From positions 248,001 to 312,000 of the forward strand of contig CANKZZ010000004.1 of NCBI GenBank assembly GCA_947488655.1: a DNA stretch of 64,000 nt. Reading direction: 5' to 3'. The notes beneath the pieces were generated by a model. The model had not been told where the DNA came from, did no database searches, and was given only the letters and a program-made list of their open reading frames with translations. Source of the stretch: an uncultured Psychroserpens sp. Its GTDB lineage: Bacteria > Bacteroidota > Bacteroidia > Flavobacteriales > Flavobacteriaceae. This document shows, one piece after another, positions 16,709 to 28,130 of the stretch. Within the stretch, counting starts at the first letter, position 1, and every line of letters begins with the position of its first letter. The position numbers and the translations under genes were made by a program.

Positions 16709-16737
16709 GCAAGTTTTTATTTTAAATCACATCTAAA
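16709..16737 (+). promoter_or_regulatory. copy A of repeated promoter-like motif GCAAGTT-N14-CATCTA (upstream of ECF sigma)
   Basis: GCAAGTTTTTATTTTAAATCACATCTAAA; same two boxes and 14-nt spacer as four other sites. Confidence 0.8.
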
Positions 16738-16767
16738 AATAATTAAGCATTAGATAACCAACTTTTT

Positions 16768-17346
16768 TTGACCGAAACTGTATTTATAGAGCAATTAAAA
16801 AATCAAACTAGGGCAGCTTATAGTAAGCTGTTAGATGATTATGAGCAAAAGGTTTTTGCAACCTGCATTTCATTTGTGCCTAATAGGGAAGATGCAGAAG
16901 ATATTGCTCAAGAGGTTTTTGTAGAAGTCTTTAAATCTATTAAAGGCTTTAAAGAGAATTCATCATTATCAACATGGATTTATAAAATTGCAACTAATAA
17001 ATGTTTAGAATTTATTAGAAAACGAAATACAAAAAAGCGCTTTGCATTTTTACAATCCTTATCAGGAAATAACTTTGCAATTGATAAAACTAATTACTTT
17101 ACTGAAATGAGTCATCCTGGTATAATTTTAGAAAATAAAGAAACTAGTGAAACCTTGTTTTATGCTATAAATCAATTACCAGAGTCACAAAGAATTGTTT
17201 TTACACTACATAAAGTAGATGGAAAGAGTTACCAAGAAATTAGTGAGATCATAGAGAAAAGTGTATCATCTGTTGAGTCATTAATGTTTAGGTCTAAAAA
17301 GAATTTACAGAGTTTACTAGAAAATTTTTATAAAAATGAGAACTGA
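16768..17346 (+). CDS. ECF-type RNA polymerase sigma-70 factor (TTG start)
   Basis: NREDAEDIAQEVFVEVFKSIKGFKENSSLSTWIYKIATNKCLEFIRKRN; sigma4 KSYQEISEIIEKSVSSVESLMFRSKKNL. Confidence 0.93.
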   Translation: MTETVFIEQLKNQTRAAYSKLLDDYEQKVFATCISFVPNREDAEDIAQEVFVEVFKSIKGFKENSSLSTWIYKIATNKCLEFIRKRNTKKRFAFLQSLSGNNFAIDKTNYFTEMSHPGIILENKETSETLFYAINQLPESQRIVFTLHKVDGKSYQEISEIIEKSVSSVESLMFRSKKNLQSLLENFYKNEN

Positions 17347-17347
17347 T

Positions 17348-17376
17348 GCAAGTTTTTTAAAGTTTTTGCATCTAAA
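17348..17376 (+). promoter_or_regulatory. copy B of repeated promoter-like motif
   Basis: GCAAGTTTTTTAAAGTTTTTGCATCTAAA; 14-nt spacer; CATCTA ends only 10 nt before the next ATG. Confidence 0.75.
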
Positions 17377-17384
17377 AGTATAAT

Positions 17385-17699
17385 ATGGAAACAAATAAAA
17401 ATATAACTAAAAAGGTTGATTTAGTTTTAGATAGTGCTAATACTATTATAAAACCTAACGTATCTCCTTTTTTTAAGGACAAAACATTACAGCGTTTATT
17501 TGCTGAAAAAGAAGTTAAAAAGAGTGCTTGGAGTTGGTTTAATCCTAAACTACAATTAGCAACATTAGCAGGTGTTTTGTTTTTAAATATTTATGCCATA
17601 AAGGAGATACAAAACACAAATTATAATCAATCGATTTCTAGTTTTGCGCAAAATTATGGTTTAATTTCTAGTGAAGAGTCTTCATTATTTAATCTTTAA
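17385..17699 (+). CDS. small single-pass membrane protein, candidate anti-sigma factor
   Basis: Sits between ECF sigma and sensor-like gene; cytoplasmic-like N-term then one hydrophobic segment (LATLAGVLFLNIYAI). Confidence 0.55.
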   Translation: METNKNITKKVDLVLDSANTIIKPNVSPFFKDKTLQRLFAEKEVKKSAWSWFNPKLQLATLAGVLFLNIYAIKEIQNTNYNQSISSFAQNYGLISSEESSLFNL

Positions 17700-17701
17700 T
17701 T

Positions 17702-18166
17702 ATGAAAAAAAATAATATACTTTATTTATTGTTAATCGTACTTATTATAATGAATGGATTTTTTCTGTTTAATTATTTAGGTAAACCAAATCATGATGAC
17801 TCAATAAGGCCTAGAAACTTTATAGCTAAGCAATTAGATTTTAATGAAGCTCAATTAAAAGAGTTTGAAATACTAGAGGCTAAACATCATAAAAAAATGA
17901 GAAGTCTTGGAGACAATGTAAAGTCTATAAAAGATGACTTATTTAAAAAAATTACAGCAAACTCTGTAAATCAAGCTGAAGTTGATAGTTTGATTACCAG
18001 AATTTCTAATAAAGACTTTCAAAAAGAACGAGAAATGTTTTCTAGATTGAGAAGTATCTACGAATTGTGTGATGAGGAACAAAAAGAAAAATTTTCTGCC
18101 ATATTAATAGATGCAAGAAAATTTGATAGACCAGATAGGCCTGAGAAACCTCATAAACCAGAGTAA
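17702..18166 (+). CDS. Spy/CnrX-like periplasmic (heavy-metal sensor type) protein
   Basis: N-terminal TM anchor; FIAKQLDFNEAQLKEFEILEAKHHKKMRSL ... helical LTXXQ-like layout. Confidence 0.65.
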   Translation: MKKNNILYLLLIVLIIMNGFFLFNYLGKPNHDDSIRPRNFIAKQLDFNEAQLKEFEILEAKHHKKMRSLGDNVKSIKDDLFKKITANSVNQAEVDSLITRISNKDFQKEREMFSRLRSIYELCDEEQKEKFSAILIDARKFDRPDRPEKPHKPE

Positions 18167-18184
18167 CATCTTTAAATATTTTAA

Positions 18185-18216
18185 AAAAAAGCCTTCATTT
18201 TTGAAGGCTTTTTTTT
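18185..18216 (+). terminator. intrinsic terminator
   Basis: AAGCCTTCA-TTTT-TGAAGGCTT followed by T-run. Confidence 0.8.
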
Positions 18217-18241
18217 GTGTTTTATTTAACAAAAGGCGACA

Positions 18242-18269
18242 CAAGTTATTTAATAGTATGTCATCTAAA
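18242..18269 (+). promoter_or_regulatory. copy C of repeated promoter-like motif
   Basis: (A)CAAGTTATTTAATAGTATGTCATCTAAA; 14-nt spacer. Confidence 0.78.
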
Positions 18270-18294
18270 AGTATATAACATAAAATTTAAGAAG

Positions 18295-18582
18295 ATGAAA
18301 AGTAACACATTAAAAACAGTAGTATTAGTATTTGGCTTAGGACTATTTATGTCAAATTATTCTTTTGGACAGCAAGGTCGTCAAGAAAGAAAAGAACCTC
18401 CAACTTTTGAGCAGTTATTAAAAGAAATGGATAAAAACGAAGACGGTAAACTTGCAAAGGATGAAGTTAAAGGACCTCTAAAAGATAGTTTTACTGAGAT
18501 AGACACAAATGAAGATGGCTTTATTTCAGAAAAAGAATTAAAAGATGCACCAAAACCAGAACGTAAAAAAAGAAATAAATAA
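18295..18582 (+). CDS. secreted EF-hand protein (two EF-hand loops)
   Basis: Signal peptide MKSNTLKTVVLVFGLGLFMSNYSFG; loops DKNEDGKLAKDE and DTNEDGFISEKE. Confidence 0.85.
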   Translation: MKSNTLKTVVLVFGLGLFMSNYSFGQQGRQERKEPPTFEQLLKEMDKNEDGKLAKDEVKGPLKDSFTEIDTNEDGFISEKELKDAPKPERKKRNK

Positions 18583-18615
18583 AATTTGATTGTTTGGTTA
18601 ATAGTTTGGTTTTTT

Positions 18616-18645
18616 AAAGGCTTCGTGAGACATCATGAAGCTTTT
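18616..18645 (+). terminator. hairpin/terminator with GCTTCGTGA...TCATGAAGC core
   Basis: AAGGCTTCGTGAGACATCATGAAGCTTTT. Confidence 0.6.
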
Positions 18646-18711
18646 AATTACCAAAAGTTTTAAGATTAAAAATCCACGCATGACAGTAATTATTAAAATA
18701 AAAATCTCAAC

Positions 18712-20133
18712 ATGAAATTAATTAAAAATAACATCAATACTTTTTTCATCGTGCTTGTTTTTGGCACATCATTATTAACTTTTAATGCGTGTACTAATGA
18801 TGATGATATTATCCTCACTGAGGAAGAAACAGAAGAATTTGATGATTCAGACTTTGAAGCTACAGATTGGACTACAGAAACACACAGTAAAGATGCAGAT
18901 CCAAATTTTGATGAGGTCTTTGAAGATAATGCAGTAAAAAGACTCGATATCGTAATAACTGAAGCACGTTGGCAAAATATGCTAGATGATATGACTGATC
19001 TTTATGGAGCATTTGGAGTTGGTGGACAACCTGGCGGATTGACAGAAACTGACGAAAATCCAATTTTTGTGCCTGCAGAAGTATTCTATAATGGAGTAGA
19101 ATGGTATAGAGTAGGTGTTCGTTTTAAAGGGAATTCTAGTTTACAAACTAGTTGGCAAAATGGCATCTTAAAACTATCATTTAAATTAGATTTTGATGAG
19201 TTTGAAGATGATTATCCTCAAATAGATAATCAGCGTTTTTACGGTTTTAAAAAACTAAGTCTTAAAAATAATTTTGATGACAAATCGATGTTACGCGAAA
19301 AAGTAGCTACAGATGTATTTAGAAATGCAGGATTAGCAGTTTCTCATACTGCTTTTTATACATTATATGTAGATCATGGTGATGGACCTCAATATTTTGG
19401 TTTATATACTCTAGTAGAAGAAGTTGATGATACAGTAATAGATGAGCAGTTTTCAAGTGACGATGGTAATTTATACAAACCAGATGGCGATGCAGCAAGT
19501 TTTGCAGCAGGTACTTATGATGAAGATGAATACGTTAAGAAAACGAACGAAGATAAGGCAGATTTTAGTGATGTGTCTAATTTATTAGCAGTTATTAATG
19601 ACGAAACAAGAATAACAGATGCTGCAACTTGGAGAACAAGTTTAGATGCTGTTTTTGATACAGATGTGTTTTTAAAATATTTGGCAGTGAACACAGTAAT
19701 TCAAAATTGGGACACCTATGGTAAAATGACACATAATTATTTTCTATATAATAATCCAGAAACGAGTAAGTTAACCTGGATCCCATGGGATAATAACGAA
19801 GCATTACAACTTGGCAAAAGAGGTGGTTCGTTACCATTAGACTTTTCTGGGTTATCTGCATCAGAATGGCCATTAATAGAACATATGTATGAAGATGAAG
19901 TATACAAAACACAATATGATTTTTATGTTCAAGACGTGGTTGATGATGCATTTAATGTCAATACAATACAGTCTTTATATGCAACATATTCATCTTTAAT
20001 TGAGCCTTATGCAACCTCTGAAATTACTGGTTATACCTTTTTAAATAACAGTTCAGAATTTCAAATTGCAGTAAACGAATTGAACTCACATGTGGTCTCT
20101 CGTGCAGCTGCAGTAAGTGATTATTTGAATTAA
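18712..20133 (+). CDS. CotH kinase family lipoprotein
   Basis: Lipobox LLTFNAC; YGFKKLSLKNNFDDKSMLREKVATDVFRNAG, YFGLYTLVEEVD, NWDTYGKMTHNYFLYNNPETSKLTWIPWDNNEAL. Confidence 0.9.
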   Translation: MKLIKNNINTFFIVLVFGTSLLTFNACTNDDDIILTEEETEEFDDSDFEATDWTTETHSKDADPNFDEVFEDNAVKRLDIVITEARWQNMLDDMTDLYGAFGVGGQPGGLTETDENPIFVPAEVFYNGVEWYRVGVRFKGNSSLQTSWQNGILKLSFKLDFDEFEDDYPQIDNQRFYGFKKLSLKNNFDDKSMLREKVATDVFRNAGLAVSHTAFYTLYVDHGDGPQYFGLYTLVEEVDDTVIDEQFSSDDGNLYKPDGDAASFAAGTYDEDEYVKKTNEDKADFSDVSNLLAVINDETRITDAATWRTSLDAVFDTDVFLKYLAVNTVIQNWDTYGKMTHNYFLYNNPETSKLTWIPWDNNEALQLGKRGGSLPLDFSGLSASEWPLIEHMYEDEVYKTQYDFYVQDVVDDAFNVNTIQSLYATYSSLIEPYATSEITGYTFLNNSSEFQIAVNELNSHVVSRAAAVSDYLN

Positions 20134-20164
20134 ATAGAAAAAGTTTTTTTGATTAGTTAGTGTT

Positions 20165-20197
20165 AAAAGGCTTCGTGAGCGATTGCGAAGCTTTTTA
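20165..20197 (+). terminator. hairpin/terminator with GCTTCG...CGAAGC core
   Basis: AAAAGGCTTCGTGAGCGATTGCGAAGCTTTTT. Confidence 0.65.
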
Positions 20198-20238
20198 AGT
20201 AAGCCTAGAAGTGTCAAATACTCTAAATGTTGTTAGGT

Positions 20239-20988
20239 ATGAAAATATTCAGAAAAATTAGAAGAACATTATTAGCTTCAGGAAAAACTAAAAGCTATTG
20301 TATGTATGCTTTTGGTGAAATTGTATTAATTGTGATTGGGATTTTAATTGCTTGGAAGATTAATAGTTTAAATGAAATTAGAAAAAATAAAATAGTTGAG
20401 TTAAAAATATACCAAACCTTAATACAAGAGTTAGATGCAAACTCGAAAGTTTTAGACTCTTCAATAACTAATTACACTAGTAACTTAAAAACCATACGAA
20501 CAACTATAAAAAGTATCGGTTTGAAGCCAGAGGAATTTACCGATAAAATTAGAGAAGGAATAGTTAACGTTAATTATAAACCAGTACAATTGCATAATGG
20601 AGCAATAAATTCTATTAACAGCACAAACAAGTTTGAATTTATAGAAAGTGTACTGTTAAAAGATTTGATAGCATCTTATCCTAATGAATTAGACAATTTT
20701 GCAACTCAAGAAACAAAAATTAAAAATATTGTAATTAATAGATTGCAACCAGCAATAGAAAAACATGTGTCATTAATTGATATTCTTTCAGATCGTGATT
20801 TAGAATATAAAAGAATTCAAAACATTTTAGAAGAATCAAATTATGAGGAGTTGTTAAATAGTCGAGATTACCAAAATGCTTTGGTAGATAGACTTTTACA
20901 AACCGAAAATCAATTAGAAATTGCTAAAAGTTTGAAAGAGAAAACACAAATTATGGCTATAAAACTTAACAAAGAGTTAGGTGGTTAG
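20239..20988 (+). CDS. DUF6090-like membrane protein
   Basis: MKIFRKIRRTLLASGKTKSYCMYAFGEIVLIVIGILIAWKINSLNE N-terminal signature. Confidence 0.7.
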   Translation: MKIFRKIRRTLLASGKTKSYCMYAFGEIVLIVIGILIAWKINSLNEIRKNKIVELKIYQTLIQELDANSKVLDSSITNYTSNLKTIRTTIKSIGLKPEEFTDKIREGIVNVNYKPVQLHNGAINSINSTNKFEFIESVLLKDLIASYPNELDNFATQETKIKNIVINRLQPAIEKHVSLIDILSDRDLEYKRIQNILEESNYEELLNSRDYQNALVDRLLQTENQLEIAKSLKEKTQIMAIKLNKELGG

Positions 20989-21020
20989 CTGTGTTGCATT
21001 AAAAAATTAAATAACAAACA

Positions 21021-21049
21021 GCAAGTTTTTAAACAATATCACATCTAAA
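21021..21049 (+). promoter_or_regulatory. copy D of repeated promoter-like motif
   Basis: GCAAGTTTTTAAACAATATCACATCTAAA; 14-nt spacer. Confidence 0.8.
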
Positions 21050-21066
21050 GATTAAATACAAAACAA

Positions 21067-21588
21067 ATGAAAAATACAAACTTAAAAATGTCAATCACAA
21101 TTTTTTCAATGTTACTATGCTTTGGTCTTTTTGCACAAGGATCTCCAAGAGGTGGACAAGGAGGAAGAGGTGGACAAGATAGATCTCAAAGAGAAACACC
21201 AAGTGCTTCAAAAATTATGGAATTATTAGATACAAATAATGATAACAAAATTGATAAGGACGAAGCGTCACAGGATAAACGCGGAAAAATTTCAGAAGAT
21301 TTTGACGAAATTGATGCTAATACAGATGGTTTTATTGATTATGAAGAGCTAGATGCTTCATTAAAAAATAGAAAACCGAAAGAAATTTCCGCAGAAAAAA
21401 TTATTAAGCAAGTAGATGATAATGGTGATGGTACATTAAATGAGTTAGAAGTTGCAGCAAAAAATAAGCGACAACTTTTAAAAGAGTTTGAAAACATAGA
21501 TCTCAATAAAGATAATGAGCTCGATTTAGAAGAATTAAAAGCATTTTACTCAAAAAGGAATAAGAAAAAAGGTAAACGAAAAAATTAA
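21067..21588 (+). CDS. secreted EF-hand protein (four EF-hand-like loops)
   Basis: DTNNDNKIDKDE, DANTDGFIDYEE, DDNGDGTLNELE, DLNKDNELDLEE; signal peptide plus Gly/Arg-rich linker. Confidence 0.85.
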   Translation: MKNTNLKMSITIFSMLLCFGLFAQGSPRGGQGGRGGQDRSQRETPSASKIMELLDTNNDNKIDKDEASQDKRGKISEDFDEIDANTDGFIDYEELDASLKNRKPKEISAEKIIKQVDDNGDGTLNELEVAAKNKRQLLKEFENIDLNKDNELDLEELKAFYSKRNKKKGKRKN

Positions 21589-21609
21589 ACTAGTACGTAT
21601 AAATAAATC

Positions 21610-22722
21610 ATGAAAAACGTAACACAAGTCATCGGTTTTACAGCTTTATTATTAGTCTTAAGTTGTAACACTCACAAAGGTAATACAGAGCATTCTCATG
21701 ATGGCGAAAGTTCGCATAGTCATAATGATTATTTTGGATCATATACTTTAAATGATAGTAATTATGAGACTCAAACAACGGTAACCTTAAATGGAGATAC
21801 GAGAACAATGGTAACTAATGCGTTGCCTAATCATAAAACTGGAGATTTTCCTAACTCAGGTAATCCCAATACTATTTCAGCTCAAAATAAAACCTATACG
21901 TTTCCTGTAACTCCTAAATATACAGGACAAGCGCAATGGGTTAGAGAGCCAGGAGTTGCCCTAAACGGTATTAAATTTGAACCAGGCACTGCTGAGGTTG
22001 TAGTTTGTGATACTGGAGAAAATTATAGGGTAGAAGCATTACAAGATCTCATAGATTTAGGCTTAGATTTTAATCATGCACATGTACAGCCAACAGGAGC
22101 GTATCATTATCATGGTACACCAACATCTGTAATTGAAAAATTTGATACTGGAGAAGATTTAGTTCATATTGGTTTTGCTCATGATGGTTTCCCTATGTAT
22201 TACTCAAAAAGTGGTAAATATAAACCTAGTTTTATAGCTGTTAATGGAGATAGAGAAGGTGAAGACTGTACTTATGACAATCCACATCATTCTATTGATG
22301 TTTCGGTTGGAGGCCATCATGATGGTACCTTCACTTCAGATTTTGAATTTGTAGAGGGTTCTGGAGATTTAGATGAATGTAACGGAATTACATTAAACGG
22401 AAAATACATGTATTTAGTAACCGCAGAGTTTCCTTATGTAAGTCGTTGTCTCATGGGAGAAGTTTCTCAAGAAGAGCTTAAAGGTCCTCCAAGAGATCAG
22501 CAAGGTCAACCTGGAGGAGCACAAGAAGGACGTCCAACTGTTGATCAACTATTTGAGCGAATGGATGAGAATAACGATGGTAAATTATCACCTAAAGAAG
22601 TTAAAGGACCATTAGCAGAAAATTTTTTAAAAGTTGACGCTAATAATGATGGCTATCTAACTAAAGAAGAATTAAAAAATATGCCAAAACCGCAAGGTCA
22701 AAACACTAGAAGGCGAAATTAA
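21610..22722 (+). CDS. YHYH-domain lipoprotein with C-terminal EF-hand pair
   Basis: Lipobox LVLSCN; GAYHYHGTP; C-term DENNDGKLSPKE, DANNDGYLTKEE. Confidence 0.85.
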   Translation: MKNVTQVIGFTALLLVLSCNTHKGNTEHSHDGESSHSHNDYFGSYTLNDSNYETQTTVTLNGDTRTMVTNALPNHKTGDFPNSGNPNTISAQNKTYTFPVTPKYTGQAQWVREPGVALNGIKFEPGTAEVVVCDTGENYRVEALQDLIDLGLDFNHAHVQPTGAYHYHGTPTSVIEKFDTGEDLVHIGFAHDGFPMYYSKSGKYKPSFIAVNGDREGEDCTYDNPHHSIDVSVGGHHDGTFTSDFEFVEGSGDLDECNGITLNGKYMYLVTAEFPYVSRCLMGEVSQEELKGPPRDQQGQPGGAQEGRPTVDQLFERMDENNDGKLSPKEVKGPLAENFLKVDANNDGYLTKEELKNMPKPQGQNTRRRN

Positions 22723-22735
22723 TTTTAAATAATGC

Positions 22736-22764
22736 GCAAGTTATTTTTTAAAACCGCATCTATA
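22736..22764 (+). promoter_or_regulatory. copy E of repeated promoter-like motif
   Basis: GCAAGTTATTTTTTAAAACCGCATCTATA; 14-nt spacer. Confidence 0.78.
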
Positions 22765-22796: not shown

Positions 22797-23900
22797 ATGA
22801 AAAATTATTTTAAACTATTTTTAGTCATCTTATCATTGTCTACAGCGTTCTATGCTTGTTCAAGTGATGATGACTCTAGTAATGGAAACATAAACACAGA
22901 TAATCAAGCTCCATCTACATTCTCAGTTACGGTAAGTGCAACAGCAGCGACAGGAGCAACGATAAACTGGACGCAAGCAACAGATGCAGATGGCGATACC
23001 GTTACTTACAATGTTAATTTAGAAGACGCTGAAGTGGCAAGTAATTTATCGGTTCAAAACTATACATTTTCTGCACTAAGTACATCAACAACTTATTCTG
23101 GTACAGTAATAGCACAAGATGGCAATGGAGGAGAGACCACCTCTACATTCAGTTTTACAACAAGTGATGAAACTACTCCATCAACGCTGCATTTAGCCTT
23201 TGCAGAATTTGATGTTGATAATACAGATATTATGTTAAGTGGTACAAATGTGGTTATAGAAACTAACGGTTTACCAAATCATACCTCACCATACTGGTCT
23301 AATACAGTCTCTAGATCCATAACTGGTCCTAATGGTAATACAATGACAACTGTTTCAGACTCTAACCATCCACTATGGGTAGAACCAACGGTAACATCAT
23401 ATGATCAAATGGCACCAGGAAATATTGATGATTTTAATGGTTCATATTCATTAACAGTGTCTGCAAATCCTCAATTAGCTGCAAATTCTACATCAACAGG
23501 ACTAGGTGCTATAGGAATTTCAATTTCAGGGTCTGTAATTTATAATGATGAAGAAGGACCAAACGTGCCTTTAGACAATGCAGTTGGATCTTTAGATTAT
23601 ACTGCAGCGCACACTGGTCCGCAAAGTTATCATTATCACTTAGAGCCAAAAGCATGGTCTAATGATGATGAAAATCTCATTGGGATTATTGCAGACGGAT
23701 TTTTTCTCTACGGGAGACAATGTAACTCCACCAACGATTATCCTACAAATTTGGATGCATCTGGAGGACATACAAGTACAACACAGCATAGTGAAGGCGA
23801 ATCAGAATATCACTACCATATTCAAAACGAATTATATTTAAATCAATACTATATTTTATTTCCAGGTGACTATCAAGGAACTCCAAGTAATATTCAATAA
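22797..23900 (+). CDS. fibronectin-III / YHYH-domain lipoprotein
   Basis: Lipobox TAFYACS; FN3-like APSTFSVTVSATAATGATINWTQATDADGDTVTYNV; SYHYHLEPK and EYHYHIQNE. Confidence 0.82.
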   Translation: MKNYFKLFLVILSLSTAFYACSSDDDSSNGNINTDNQAPSTFSVTVSATAATGATINWTQATDADGDTVTYNVNLEDAEVASNLSVQNYTFSALSTSTTYSGTVIAQDGNGGETTSTFSFTTSDETTPSTLHLAFAEFDVDNTDIMLSGTNVVIETNGLPNHTSPYWSNTVSRSITGPNGNTMTTVSDSNHPLWVEPTVTSYDQMAPGNIDDFNGSYSLTVSANPQLAANSTSTGLGAIGISISGSVIYNDEEGPNVPLDNAVGSLDYTAAHTGPQSYHYHLEPKAWSNDDENLIGIIADGFFLYGRQCNSTNDYPTNLDASGGHTSTTQHSEGESEYHYHIQNELYLNQYYILFPGDYQGTPSNIQ

Positions 23901-24495
23901 AACAGCTTTAAGTATATGTCTGTTAATAATTGTTTCTTGTAAAAAAGAAACGCAAAAACCTATGGCACTTGCAGAAGTTGCCATAAGTACAACAGATTAT
24001 ATAACAGCAAATAAGAGTGCGTTAGAGTTAAAACCAAATTTAGGGTTGATGTATCATAATAATCAACCCTTTACAGGTGTTTCACAAGTTTTTTATTCTG
24101 AAATGGTAAAGGCTGAAACTATAGAATATAAAAATGGAAAACGTCACGGACTTTATAAAAAATGGTTTCCAGATGGAACATTAAGTTTTGAAGCAACATA
24201 TCAAAATGGGCTTCAACAAGGCACTGCAAAATCATGGTGGAGTAATGGGAATTTGCGATCTATTGCAAACTATGATAAAGGTATTGTAAACGGTGTGCAA
24301 AAACAATGGTATAAATCTGGAAACATTTTTAAAGAAATGAATATTTTAAATGGTAAAGAAGAAGGGATGCAAAAAGCCTGGAGAGAAAACGGAAAAATTT
24401 ATAATAACTACGAAGCAAAAAACGGACGCATTTTTGGATTAAAACGTGCTAGTCTATGCTTTCAATTAGAAGATGAAATTGTACAGAATAATTAG
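23866..24495 (+). CDS. MORN/YwqK-repeat lipoprotein
   Basis: Lipobox LLIIVSC; NGKRHGLYKKWFPDGTLSFEATYQNGLQQGTAKSWWSNGNLRSIANYDKG repeats; overlaps upstream and downstream ORFs. Confidence 0.78.
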   Translation: MTIKELQVIFNKTALSICLLIIVSCKKETQKPMALAEVAISTTDYITANKSALELKPNLGLMYHNNQPFTGVSQVFYSEMVKAETIEYKNGKRHGLYKKWFPDGTLSFEATYQNGLQQGTAKSWWSNGNLRSIANYDKGIVNGVQKQWYKSGNIFKEMNILNGKEEGMQKAWRENGKIYNNYEAKNGRIFGLKRASLCFQLEDEIVQNN

Positions 24496-25135
24496 TTGTT
24501 TAATGGTTTTAGTTTTGGCGTCTTGCAATGAGGCAACAAAAAAAGAAAAATCCAGTCGAGTAGATACATTACCGTATTATGCTGAGGCTTCATTTACACC
24601 AAATTGGTTAGTTGGAGAATCTAATGATGTTAATAGTTTTCATAAAATCCCATCATTTAGTCTAACAAATCAACTAGGAGAAACCGTTACAGAAAAAACA
24701 TTTGAAAATAAAATTTATGTTGCCGATTTTTTCTTTACAACTTGTCCTGGAATTTGCCCTAAGATGACCGCTAATATGAAGGTGCTACAAGATGAGTTTT
24801 TAGATGATAATGAGGTTTTGTTATTGTCGCACTCGGTAACTCCAGAGACAGACTCTGTTGCTGCTTTAAAACAGTATGCAGATAATAAAGAGGTTATTAG
24901 TGATAAGTGGCATTTAGTAACAGGAGACAGAAAACAAATTTATGATTTAGGTAGGCAATCTTATTTTGCTGAAGAAGATTTAGGCGAAATTAAAACCGAA
25001 GACGATTTTCTACATACCGAAAACTTTGTACTCATTGATAAGAAAAGACATATTAGAGGTATTTATAACGGTTTAAATAAAACTGCTGTGCAACAATTAA
25101 TAGCAGATATAAAAACATTACAAAAAGAAGATTAA
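24473..25135 (+). CDS. SCO1/SenC family lipoprotein
   Basis: FFFTTCPGICPKMTANMKVLQ (CxxxC) and conserved downstream H (SHSVTPETDS). Confidence 0.9.
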   Translation: MKLYRIISCLMVLVLASCNEATKKEKSSRVDTLPYYAEASFTPNWLVGESNDVNSFHKIPSFSLTNQLGETVTEKTFENKIYVADFFFTTCPGICPKMTANMKVLQDEFLDDNEVLLLSHSVTPETDSVAALKQYADNKEVISDKWHLVTGDRKQIYDLGRQSYFAEEDLGEIKTEDDFLHTENFVLIDKKRHIRGIYNGLNKTAVQQLIADIKTLQKED

Positions 25136-25172: not shown

Positions 25173-25205
25173 AAAGCTTCGTGATTATGTCACGAAGCTT
25201 TTCTA
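25173..25205 (+). terminator. intrinsic terminator (perfect 12-bp stem)
   Basis: AAAGCTTCGTGA-TTATG-TCACGAAGCTTT. Confidence 0.85.
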
Positions 25206-25227: not shown

Positions 25228-26340
25228 ATGAGAAGACTCTTGGTTTTAGTATTAGGCCCAATTATTATAATTGGATTAGGAAGTTGTGGATTATTTAGAG
25301 TTAATAAGTTTAAATACGAACCTACGGTTAAAAAGATTCCTAAACTAGACATTGAAATTTTAATGCAGGATTCTACTTTAAATGTGAGAGCTTTAGAAGT
25401 TGACCAAGCAGGAACAGGTATTTTTGCGACTTCAAATGGTAAGGTTGGTTTTATTTTTACATCTAAATATTTAAGCTTAGATTATACTAATACAGAAACC
25501 TTAGAATGTCAAATTTTCTATGATTTTAATTATTCTAAAGATTCTGTGCCTAACTTTAGATCGGTTGCAAAAACGAAGAAGCAATTTTTTGCATTAGCTA
25601 TTGGTAGTCCAGCAGCAATGTTTACTGTTGCCAATGATTCGATTTGGCCTATAGTTTATAGAGAAAACCATCCAAAAGCTTTCTACGACTCTATGGAATT
25701 TTGGAACGACGATGAAGGTATCGCGATAGGTGATAGTACAGATGGCTGTTTATCTGTAATCATTACAAGAGATGGAGGTAAAACATGGACAAAATTAACT
25801 TGCGACCAATTACCAAAAGGTATTGAAGGAGAAGGAGCTTTTGCAGCAAGTGATACTAATATTGCAATTGTAGGCAACAAAACTTGGGTTGCCACCACAA
25901 CAGGAAGAATTTACTATTCAGATGATAAGGGAGTTACATGGACAACTGTAAATACACCAATAGTTAAAAATAAAGACACCGAAGGTATCTATTCTATAGA
26001 TTTTTATGACGAGAATAATGGCTTTGGTATTGGAGGAGATTATACAAAACCAGCAGATAGTACTGCTAATAAGATAAGAACCAAAGATGGTGGTAAAACG
26101 TGGCAGCTTGTCGCGGAAAACCAATCTCCAGGATATAGAAGTTGTGTACAATATATCCCTAACTCAAATGCGCAAAAATTAGTTGCGATAGGCTTTAAGG
26201 GTATTGATTATTCAAACGATGCTGGTGATTCTTGGACTCATTTAAGTGACGAAGGTTTTTACACGATTAGATTTTTAAATGATAGTGTCGCTTATGCTGC
26301 AGGAAGTAAAAGGATAGCAAAACTTACATTTAAGGACTAA
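25228..26340 (+). CDS. BNR/Ycf48-like repeat lipoprotein
   Basis: Repeated DGGKTWTKL, DDKGVTWTTV, DGGKTWQLV, NDAGDSWTHL motifs; N-terminal lipobox. Confidence 0.75.
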   Translation: MRRLLVLVLGPIIIIGLGSCGLFRVNKFKYEPTVKKIPKLDIEILMQDSTLNVRALEVDQAGTGIFATSNGKVGFIFTSKYLSLDYTNTETLECQIFYDFNYSKDSVPNFRSVAKTKKQFFALAIGSPAAMFTVANDSIWPIVYRENHPKAFYDSMEFWNDDEGIAIGDSTDGCLSVIITRDGGKTWTKLTCDQLPKGIEGEGAFAASDTNIAIVGNKTWVATTTGRIYYSDDKGVTWTTVNTPIVKNKDTEGIYSIDFYDENNGFGIGGDYTKPADSTANKIRTKDGGKTWQLVAENQSPGYRSCVQYIPNSNAQKLVAIGFKGIDYSNDAGDSWTHLSDEGFYTIRFLNDSVAYAAGSKRIAKLTFKD

Positions 26341-27358: not shown

Positions 27359-27901
27359 TTAATCTTGAGTTAAAAATGCTTCAATTTTTTTTACAGCTAT
27401 ATGGTAGGAGGCTTTGAGTGCACCTTCTGTAGTATCTAATATATCTGACATGTCTTTGTATTTAATATCTTCAAAATATCTCATATTAAAAACAAGTTGT
27501 TGTTTCTCTGGTAAAGTCGCAATGGCTTGTTGCAATTTTAATTGTATATCGTCACCTTCAAAATAAACATCTGCTTTTAAATTTGTGATAGATTGTTGCT
27601 GCAATTCTTCCGAAGAAAAATTAATGCGCTTTGCATTTTTAGAGAGATGCGTGAGTGATTCGTTAGTGGCAATACGATACATCCATGAAAATAATTTACT
27701 ATCTTCTTTAAAGTTTTGAATGTTTTTATACACTTTAATAAAGGTGTTTTGCAAAACATCATCTGCATCATCGTGAGATTTCACAATATGACGAATATGC
27801 CAATATAAACGCTCCTTATAAAGTATAAGTAACTCTTTATAAGCAAGATCTTTTGTGTTTGGCTGCTTGAGGCGTTGTATTAAAAGTTGTTCGTTGTTCA
27901 A
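27359..27901 (-). CDS. ECF-type RNA polymerase sigma-70 factor
   Basis: SHDDADDVLQNTFIKVYKNIQNFKEDSKLFSWMYRIATNESLTHL; sigma4 DMSDILDTTEGALKASYHIAVKKIEAFL. Confidence 0.93.
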   Translation of the reverse strand: MNNEQLLIQRLKQPNTKDLAYKELLILYKERLYWHIRHIVKSHDDADDVLQNTFIKVYKNIQNFKEDSKLFSWMYRIATNESLTHLSKNAKRINFSSEELQQQSITNLKADVYFEGDDIQLKLQQAIATLPEKQQLVFNMRYFEDIKYKDMSDILDTTEGALKASYHIAVKKIEAFLTQD

Positions 27902-28130
27902 TAAAACGTTTTTAATTTAGACTCAACAATTTACAGAAAGTTTAATGAAAAAAAATATAAATTATAAGTATTTGATATACAATTAATTAAGTAAAATTTA
28001 ATCGATAAAGTGTATATTAATAACGATGAAATGCAAATTTTTCTTGTTTTATAGTGTTATTTAATATATGTTTGTCAAAGCCTTACCTACTTAAATATTG
28101 TCATTGTCCCCAAATGATGACAATAAACTG

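Follow-up and report, generated by a model that had tools for sequence, protein, structure and literature searches.

What reads the five near-identical sequence boxes that lie close together in a stretch of 64,000 nucleotides from an uncultured Psychroserpens sp. (assembly GCA_947488655.1, contig CANKZZ010000004.1, positions 248,001 to 312,000; the whole stretch is called the window here)? The initial annotation proposed that they form the promoter motif of an extracytoplasmic function (ECF) sigma factor whose gene starts at position 16768. We searched for RCAAGTT-N14-CATCTA in the 64 kb window and in the 3.6-Mb genome to which it belongs (99.9% complete). The boxes are given below with the three genes at the head of the cluster, which encode the sigma factor, a candidate anti-sigma factor and a candidate sensor.

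16709..16736, plus strand: box 1, before the sigma gene, GCAAGTT-N14-CATCTAA
16768..17346, plus strand: ECF sigma factor, 192 aa, TTG start, Sigma70_r2 and Sigma70_r4_2
17348..17375, plus strand: box 2, between the sigma and anti-sigma genes, GCAAGTT-N14-CATCTAA
17385..17699, plus strand: candidate anti-sigma factor (104 aa) with a membrane helix between two predicted cytoplasmic helices and a short C-terminal tail
17702..18166, plus strand: candidate periplasmic sensor, N-terminal membrane anchor and CnrX/Spy-like helical domain
18241..18268, plus strand: box 3, before EF-hand gene 1, ACAAGTT-N14-CATCTAA
21021..21048, plus strand: box 4, before EF-hand gene 2, GCAAGTT-N14-CATCTAA
22736..22763, plus strand: box 5, before the YHYH-MORN-SCO unit, GCAAGTT-N14-CATCTAT

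All five boxes of the annotation were recovered, with one correction: the third starts at 18241, not 18242, and reads ACAAGTT. As had been described, the spacer is exactly 14 nt in all five and all five lie on the coding strand near start codons (gaps of 9-33 nt); CATCTAA/T and the start codon are separated by 31 (to the TTG of the sigma gene), 9, 26, 18 and 33 nt for boxes 1 to 5. For 64 kb a first-order model predicts 0.004 occurrences of the motif per strand, and for the genome 0.5, against the five observed inside about 6 kb of the window. The exact form GCAAGTT-N14-CATCTA occurs four times in the 3.6-Mb genome, always within this cluster, and is thus not common elsewhere. Allowing one mismatch gave five places, one of which is box 3; the other four, outside the cluster, lie within or overlap open reading frames (ORFs) and are therefore not claimed as sites. 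At two or three mismatches there was no excess over chance or shuffled sequence in the window or the genome, and the signal therefore resides in the near-exact matches. A site at 25439 with two mismatches, inside a BNR ORF, was set aside as chance.

The distribution of the motif among genomes follows that of the sigma gene. In a first survey of 150 genomes, RCAAGTT-N14-CATCTAA gave 52 sites in 17 of the 19 ortholog-bearing genomes and four sites in 3 of the 131 ortholog-free genomes, all four inside ORFs. We then searched 398 Flavobacteriaceae genomes, 47 of which pass the threshold for a sigma ortholog (E below 1e-70), with a strict motif, CRCAAGTT-N14-CATCTAAA. It yielded 114 sites in 40 genomes, all 40 with the ortholog, compared to a single site for a reversed control pattern. 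Data thus showed the strict motif in 40/47 ortholog genomes and 0/351 others (Fisher 4e-48, a value that is overstated because genomes of one genus are not independent, although the split is still complete across many genera). In the other seven ortholog genomes, near variants stand in for the strict form (such as GCAAGGT or CATCTTA, or an exact site with another next base), and the strict motif is absent from five genomes having only weaker sigma paralogs (E 1e-32 to 1e-40). The orthologs, with 58-87% identity, belong to a marine subset of the family that includes Psychroserpens, Algibacter, Winogradskyella, Lacinutrix, Olleya, Tamlana, Flavivirga, Kordia and other genera. The motif is therefore kept upstream of orthologous clusters in 40 or more genomes and, judged by this comparison of sequences, is tied to the sigma factor encoded at 16768.

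The anatomy of the motif was derived from 310 distinct sites around 81 sigma orthologs. The upstream half has the consensus C(93%)-R-CAAG-TT-TTT, followed by about ten free positions, and the downstream half reads G(64%)-CATCTAAA. The T-rich run noted earlier after the first box is a general feature, with T in 88, 82 and 74% at the three positions 3' of GTT, and A/T-rich tracts lie 12-20 bases upstream of the box. At 7 nt past TCTAA, where the transcription start site (TSS) would fall, A is found in 77%. Spacing and orientation are fixed: around the 81 orthologs, the coding strand had 274 occurrences of a spacer of 14 and the opposite strand none, whereas spacers of 8-13 and 15-21 summed to 5 forward and 3 reverse. 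The letters of the spacer have diverged, and both boxes hold near 2 bits per position. Median distances from box to start codon are 10-34 nt, and the first base varies by target (A in 54/55 EF-hand-1 sites, G in 68/79 anti-sigma sites). In all likelihood, as part of the whole explanation proposed here, RCAAGTTTTT serves as the -35 element and CATCTAAA as the -10 element, so that AAGTT and TCTAA stand 16 bp apart.

The consensus of E. coli sigma-E promoters is GGAACTT / GTCTAA. The motif shares with it the AA-TT core and the 16 bp to TCTAA, and both sigma factors consist of regions 2 and 4, but the -35 core is AAGTT here (C to G), CATCTAA replaces GTCTAA, and no RseA-type anti-sigma domain was detected at this locus. 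Mapped ECF promoters are also known from a flavobacterium: motif SM6 of Flavobacterium psychrophilum has a sigma/anti-sigma pair among its targets (PMC9723704). It differs from the present motif, which has CATCTAAA at -10 and EF-hand, YHYH and SCO proteins as targets. The sigma-E-like geometry that had been pointed out is backed by a second ECF system in the window, convergent with the first.

27359-27901, minus strand: second ECF sigma gene
27917-27945: box TTAAACTTT-N14-GTCTAA, upstream of this sigma gene
26828: anti-sigma candidate of the second system, 166 aa
26374: Spy-like protein of the second system

This box is kept in most of 40 loci and resembles the E. coli sigma-E consensus. Both systems have the same gene trio and the same promoter geometry, AACTT-N16-TCTAA in the second and AAGTT-N16-TCTAA in the first; the second differs in its promoter letters, its bigger anti-sigma candidate and the apparent cleavable signal peptide of its Spy-like protein. 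The promoters differ mainly by a C/G exchange in the -35 element and a GT/CA change before TCTAA. Two insulated ECF systems would be expected to share geometry and differ in letters, as these do.

We consider it very probable that the five boxes are promoters read by the ECF sigma factor encoded at 16768, and we weighed three other explanations of them. The boxes might form a bipartite operator for a DNA-binding regulator, with transcription by the housekeeping sigma factor: their halves, almost invariant, lie 21 bp apart, and a dimeric regulator would also fit such a constant separation of about two helical turns. However, these halves are neither repeats nor inverted copies of one another, and the housekeeping TAnnTTTG box overlaps the -10 region in only 2/314 sites, the background rate. 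Moreover, the cluster has no other conserved regulator gene, the co-occurrence is with the ECF sigma gene, and the neighboring ECF gene has a box pair of the same geometry; an operator is highly improbable. Another ECF factor of the roughly 20 in this genome, such as the neighbor at 27359-27901, might instead read the boxes, since 25 matches in the genome exceed the Sigma70_r4_2 cut-off and related ECF factors can share promoters, as noted for flavobacteria (PMC9723704). This is improbable, as the strict motif is missing from the 351 ortholog-free genomes despite their many other ECF genes and from the five genomes with only weaker paralogs, and the box conserved at the neighbor itself reads TTAAACTTT-N14-GTCTAA. 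An origin of the boxes by chance or from repeated sequence has a negligible probability. The genome is A/T-rich and the pattern at two or three mismatches is as common as in shuffled sequence, yet the expectation of 0.004 and the co-occurrence with the sigma ortholog exclude such an origin, and the boxes, with spacers that have diverged, are kept in more than 40 genomes. At the level of sequence, we hold the claim of an ECF regulon with high confidence.

The product of the sigma gene matches regions 2 and 4 in Pfam, with no match to region 3, as expected for an ECF factor. Its 19 aligned orthologs have a mean column identity of 77%, and the closest solved structures are SigW and E. coli sigma-E. 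The TTG start, also found in many orthologs, may restrict basal translation.

A box ahead of the sigma gene had been taken to imply autoregulation. Such a box is present here and in about 52 of the 81 loci (51-52), but it is optional, and the conserved box is that of the anti-sigma gene, kept in 79/81 loci. The absence of a box upstream of sigma in about 28 loci (28-29) counts against the explanation proposed here; at these genes the best motif match is mostly no better than in random sequence. An element TAnnTTGY, described as promoter box SM5 in F. psychrophilum (PMC9723704), precedes 13/29 of the box-less sigma genes, compared to 2/52 of those with a box. Promoter layout thus indicates that sigma autoregulation is common but optional and that predicted induction of inhibitor and sensor is nearly universal; we infer that the conserved feedback acts on the inhibitor, not on the sigma factor. 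Since the anti-sigma/sensor promoter has the most conserved box, a self-damping response would be expected. A TSS 7 nt after TCTAA would leave the anti-sigma mRNA from box 2 with a leader of about 3 nt, nearly leaderless (17348-17385), and gaps of 9-10 nt between this box and the anti-sigma start recur across many orthologs.

How such a sigma factor might be restrained is a question that the two genes after it raise. The 17385 product has no Pfam or NCBIfam match and hence no detected class I (RseA-type, ASDI) anti-sigma domain. Its orthologs (n=18) have in common a VSPFFKDKTM motif, a membrane helix and an acidic tail; the best 19-aa hydropathy is 1.65-2.43 in the orthologs and 1.34 in the window copy. 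In the structural model, which is of low confidence, helices span residues 3-19, 28-40, 54-77 and 80-90, giving a topology like that of CnrY, with two cytoplasmic helices and one membrane helix. A search of PDB profiles with this protein returned spurious matches only. An order-wide search with the anti-sigma profile matched its own genome only, in a sample dominated by other genera, and the module therefore seems confined to part of the Flavobacteriaceae.

The third gene, 17702, had no place in the initial annotation, and its product is the likely sensor. It matches the LTXXQ family of Pfam (4e-8) and the profile of E. coli Spy (3e-4), and its AlphaFold model (predicted local distance difference test score, pLDDT, 84.8) has helix 4-26 as the membrane anchor. 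The best PDB matches of this model are CnrX, with a target TM-score of 0.73-0.83; CnrX and NccX rank above Spy and ZraP, and CpxP is among the top matches with a lower TM-score. Profiles of the sensor and CnrX show weak sequence similarity across the C-terminal 81 columns. A terminator-like hairpin (18182..18217, plus strand) closes the sigma/anti-sigma/sensor unit. In one minimal locus (L089, G134) only these three genes are found, with the variant boxes GCAAGAT and GCAAGGT, and the target genes are not there.

Because the predicted shape of the sensor matches CnrX, the unit may work like a system of metal-resistant proteobacteria. CnrYXH of Cupriavidus metallidurans, a class II anti-sigma system, comprises the sigma factor CnrH, the anti-sigma factor CnrY and the sensor CnrX (PMC4598750, PMC7406223). 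Compared with the CnrY, CnrX and CnrH sequences of pMOL28, the present trio is alike in its ECF sigma factor (191-192 aa), its membrane-anchored sensor of 148-154 aa with a modeled CnrX fold, its short anti-sigma factor (94 aa in CnrY, 104 aa here), in which one membrane helix separates two cytoplasmic helices (predicted here) from a short periplasmic tail, and in a promoter serving the regulatory genes. It differs in its gene order (H-Y-X here, Y-X-H there), in its promoter, which is unlike those of cnrY and cnrC, in its Bacteroidota host and in an anti-sigma factor without sequence similarity to CnrY. The sigma factor is closer to SigW and sigma-E and shows only generic sigma similarity to CnrH, and the cluster has no RND (resistance-nodulation-division) metal efflux genes, unlike the CnrYXH target operon. 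A small YHYH-domain gene adjoins cnrYXH in Cupriavidus (pMOL28, L277 905-1027), possibly by coincidence.

Several results weigh against this comparison. The anti-sigma model has a pLDDT of 66.6, and comparison of the anti-sigma profile with CnrY by hhalign (probability 0.7%) detects no relation in sequence. The Foldseek E-values of the sensor against CnrX are weak (about 0.009), the domain being small and helical. With respect to the metal ligands of CnrX, which we take to be H42, H46, E63 and H119 (checked against the CnrX sequence), no equivalent of H42 or H46 is present, as the first sensor helix contains no His, and a His aligned with H119 is found in 13/17 sensor orthologs but is R115 in the window copy. 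The same metal chemistry as CnrX is therefore unlikely in the window copy. A rather unlikely, but substantial, alternative is that 17702 encodes an ordinary anchored chaperone or stress product of the Spy/CpxP type and that the anti-sigma factor senses by itself or is cleaved by proteases like RseA. The sequence profile indeed reaches E. coli Spy and LTXXQ, not CnrX, and the CnrX ligands are not all conserved. On the other hand, the TM-scores for CnrX exceed those for Spy or CpxP (about 0.5-0.64), the protein is membrane anchored and encoded directly after the anti-sigma gene, its ortholog is kept in the minimal locus that lost the target genes, and the gene trio recurs in the second system of the window. 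On these analogies the unit probably works like CnrYXH and would be an unusual, class II-like control module in Bacteroidota, with the trio a candidate at most for formal membership of the CnrYXH family.

The genes that follow the remaining boxes, or lie among them, are as follows.

18295..18582, plus strand: secreted EF-hand protein, 95 aa (EF-hand gene 1; EF-hand_1 2e-9)
18712..20133, plus strand: CotH-family lipoprotein (PF08757 5e-69), without its own box in this genome
21067..21588, plus strand: secreted protein with several EF-hands, 173 aa (EF-hand gene 2; domain match)
21610..22722, plus strand: YHYH and EF-hand lipoprotein (PF14240 2e-52)
22797..23900, plus strand: fn3 and YHYH lipoprotein (domain match)
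23914..24495, plus strand: MORN-repeat lipoprotein, start codon uncertain (MORN_2 1e-13)
24473..25135, plus strand: SCO1/SenC lipoprotein (PF02630 5.5e-26)
25173..25201, plus strand: terminator-like hairpin closing the YHYH-MORN-SCO unit

Among the 81 loci, boxes precede EF-hand gene 1 in 55, the YHYH-fn3 gene in 45, CotH in 18, EF-hand gene 2 in 17 and the YHYH-EF gene in 13. The window products have signal or lipoprotein leaders, as judged by eye, and the regulon would therefore serve the envelope. In some relatives the predicted regulon extends past the cluster, where boxes in trans precede similar envelope genes, for YHYH (G046, G505, G529), CotH (G354), sulfatase (G044, G017, G448), Cthe_2159 (G517), VTC polyphosphate polymerase (G412) and di-haem peroxidase (G083) proteins. 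Three further sites are not claimed, one inside an ORF (G085:C5) and two with no clear target (G527:C1:3792308 and G557:C7). Genes for VTC-domain polyphosphate polymerases follow a box at L155 (12538-13293) and L264 (G412); the VTC, Cthe_2159 and CotH genes after boxes suggest a link of the regulon to surface polymer or polyphosphate. A lanthanide reading, based on weak lanmodulin matches, was set aside, as the loops resemble those of ordinary EF-hands. In about a dozen loci (L085, L110, L112, L114, L120, L124, L126, L128, L136, L172, L178, L179 and others) a small membrane protein of about 29-68 aa (MKxxRxKL...LNIxMI) is encoded directly after the box and before the YHYH gene; it was not seen in the window. 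No account of this system turned up when the available literature was searched for regulons of YHYH, CotH or EF-hand genes or for CnrX-like sensors in Bacteroidota.

Taken together, these results suggest the following mechanism. In the resting state, the sigma factor would probably be held at the membrane by the 104-aa protein in the manner of CnrY, whose counterpart here would expose a short periplasmic tail that would probably be read by the anchored CnrX-fold sensor. The sigma factor would be set free by a signal in the periplasm, perhaps a metal, a redox change or damage to the envelope, and would then transcribe its own gene in this and most genomes and the anti-sigma and sensor genes in nearly all. 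The freed sigma factor would also transcribe the units for secreted or lipid-anchored EF-hand, YHYH, MORN and SCO proteins, and in some relatives the targets would include CotH, di-haem peroxidase, sulfatase, Cthe_2159 or VTC proteins. There is, in our judgment, an even chance that the locus is a Bacteroidota transmembrane switch of CnrYXH-like design, with a promoter code of its own (AAGTT-N16-TCTAA) that is orthogonal to AACTT-N16-TCTAA of the neighbor, and that it controls surface calcium, metal and redox proteins and feeds back on its inhibitor.

Among the ECF sigma factors of Bacteroidota, only about 6% are encoded next to a class I anti-sigma factor (PMC7406223). If true, the proposed switch would be one answer to how the Bacteroidota ECF factors without class I anti-sigma domains are restrained. 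The sigma factor, the candidate anti-sigma factor, the sensor with its modeled CnrX fold and the predicted regulon form one compact conserved unit in about 12% of the sampled Flavobacteriaceae genomes. Its promoter code is defined precisely enough to be tested directly with reporters or in vitro, and the adjacent paralogous systems offer a natural pair for studies of ECF promoter specificity. The predicted regulon would also give a first regulatory context to EF-hand, YHYH, MORN and CotH proteins of unknown role.

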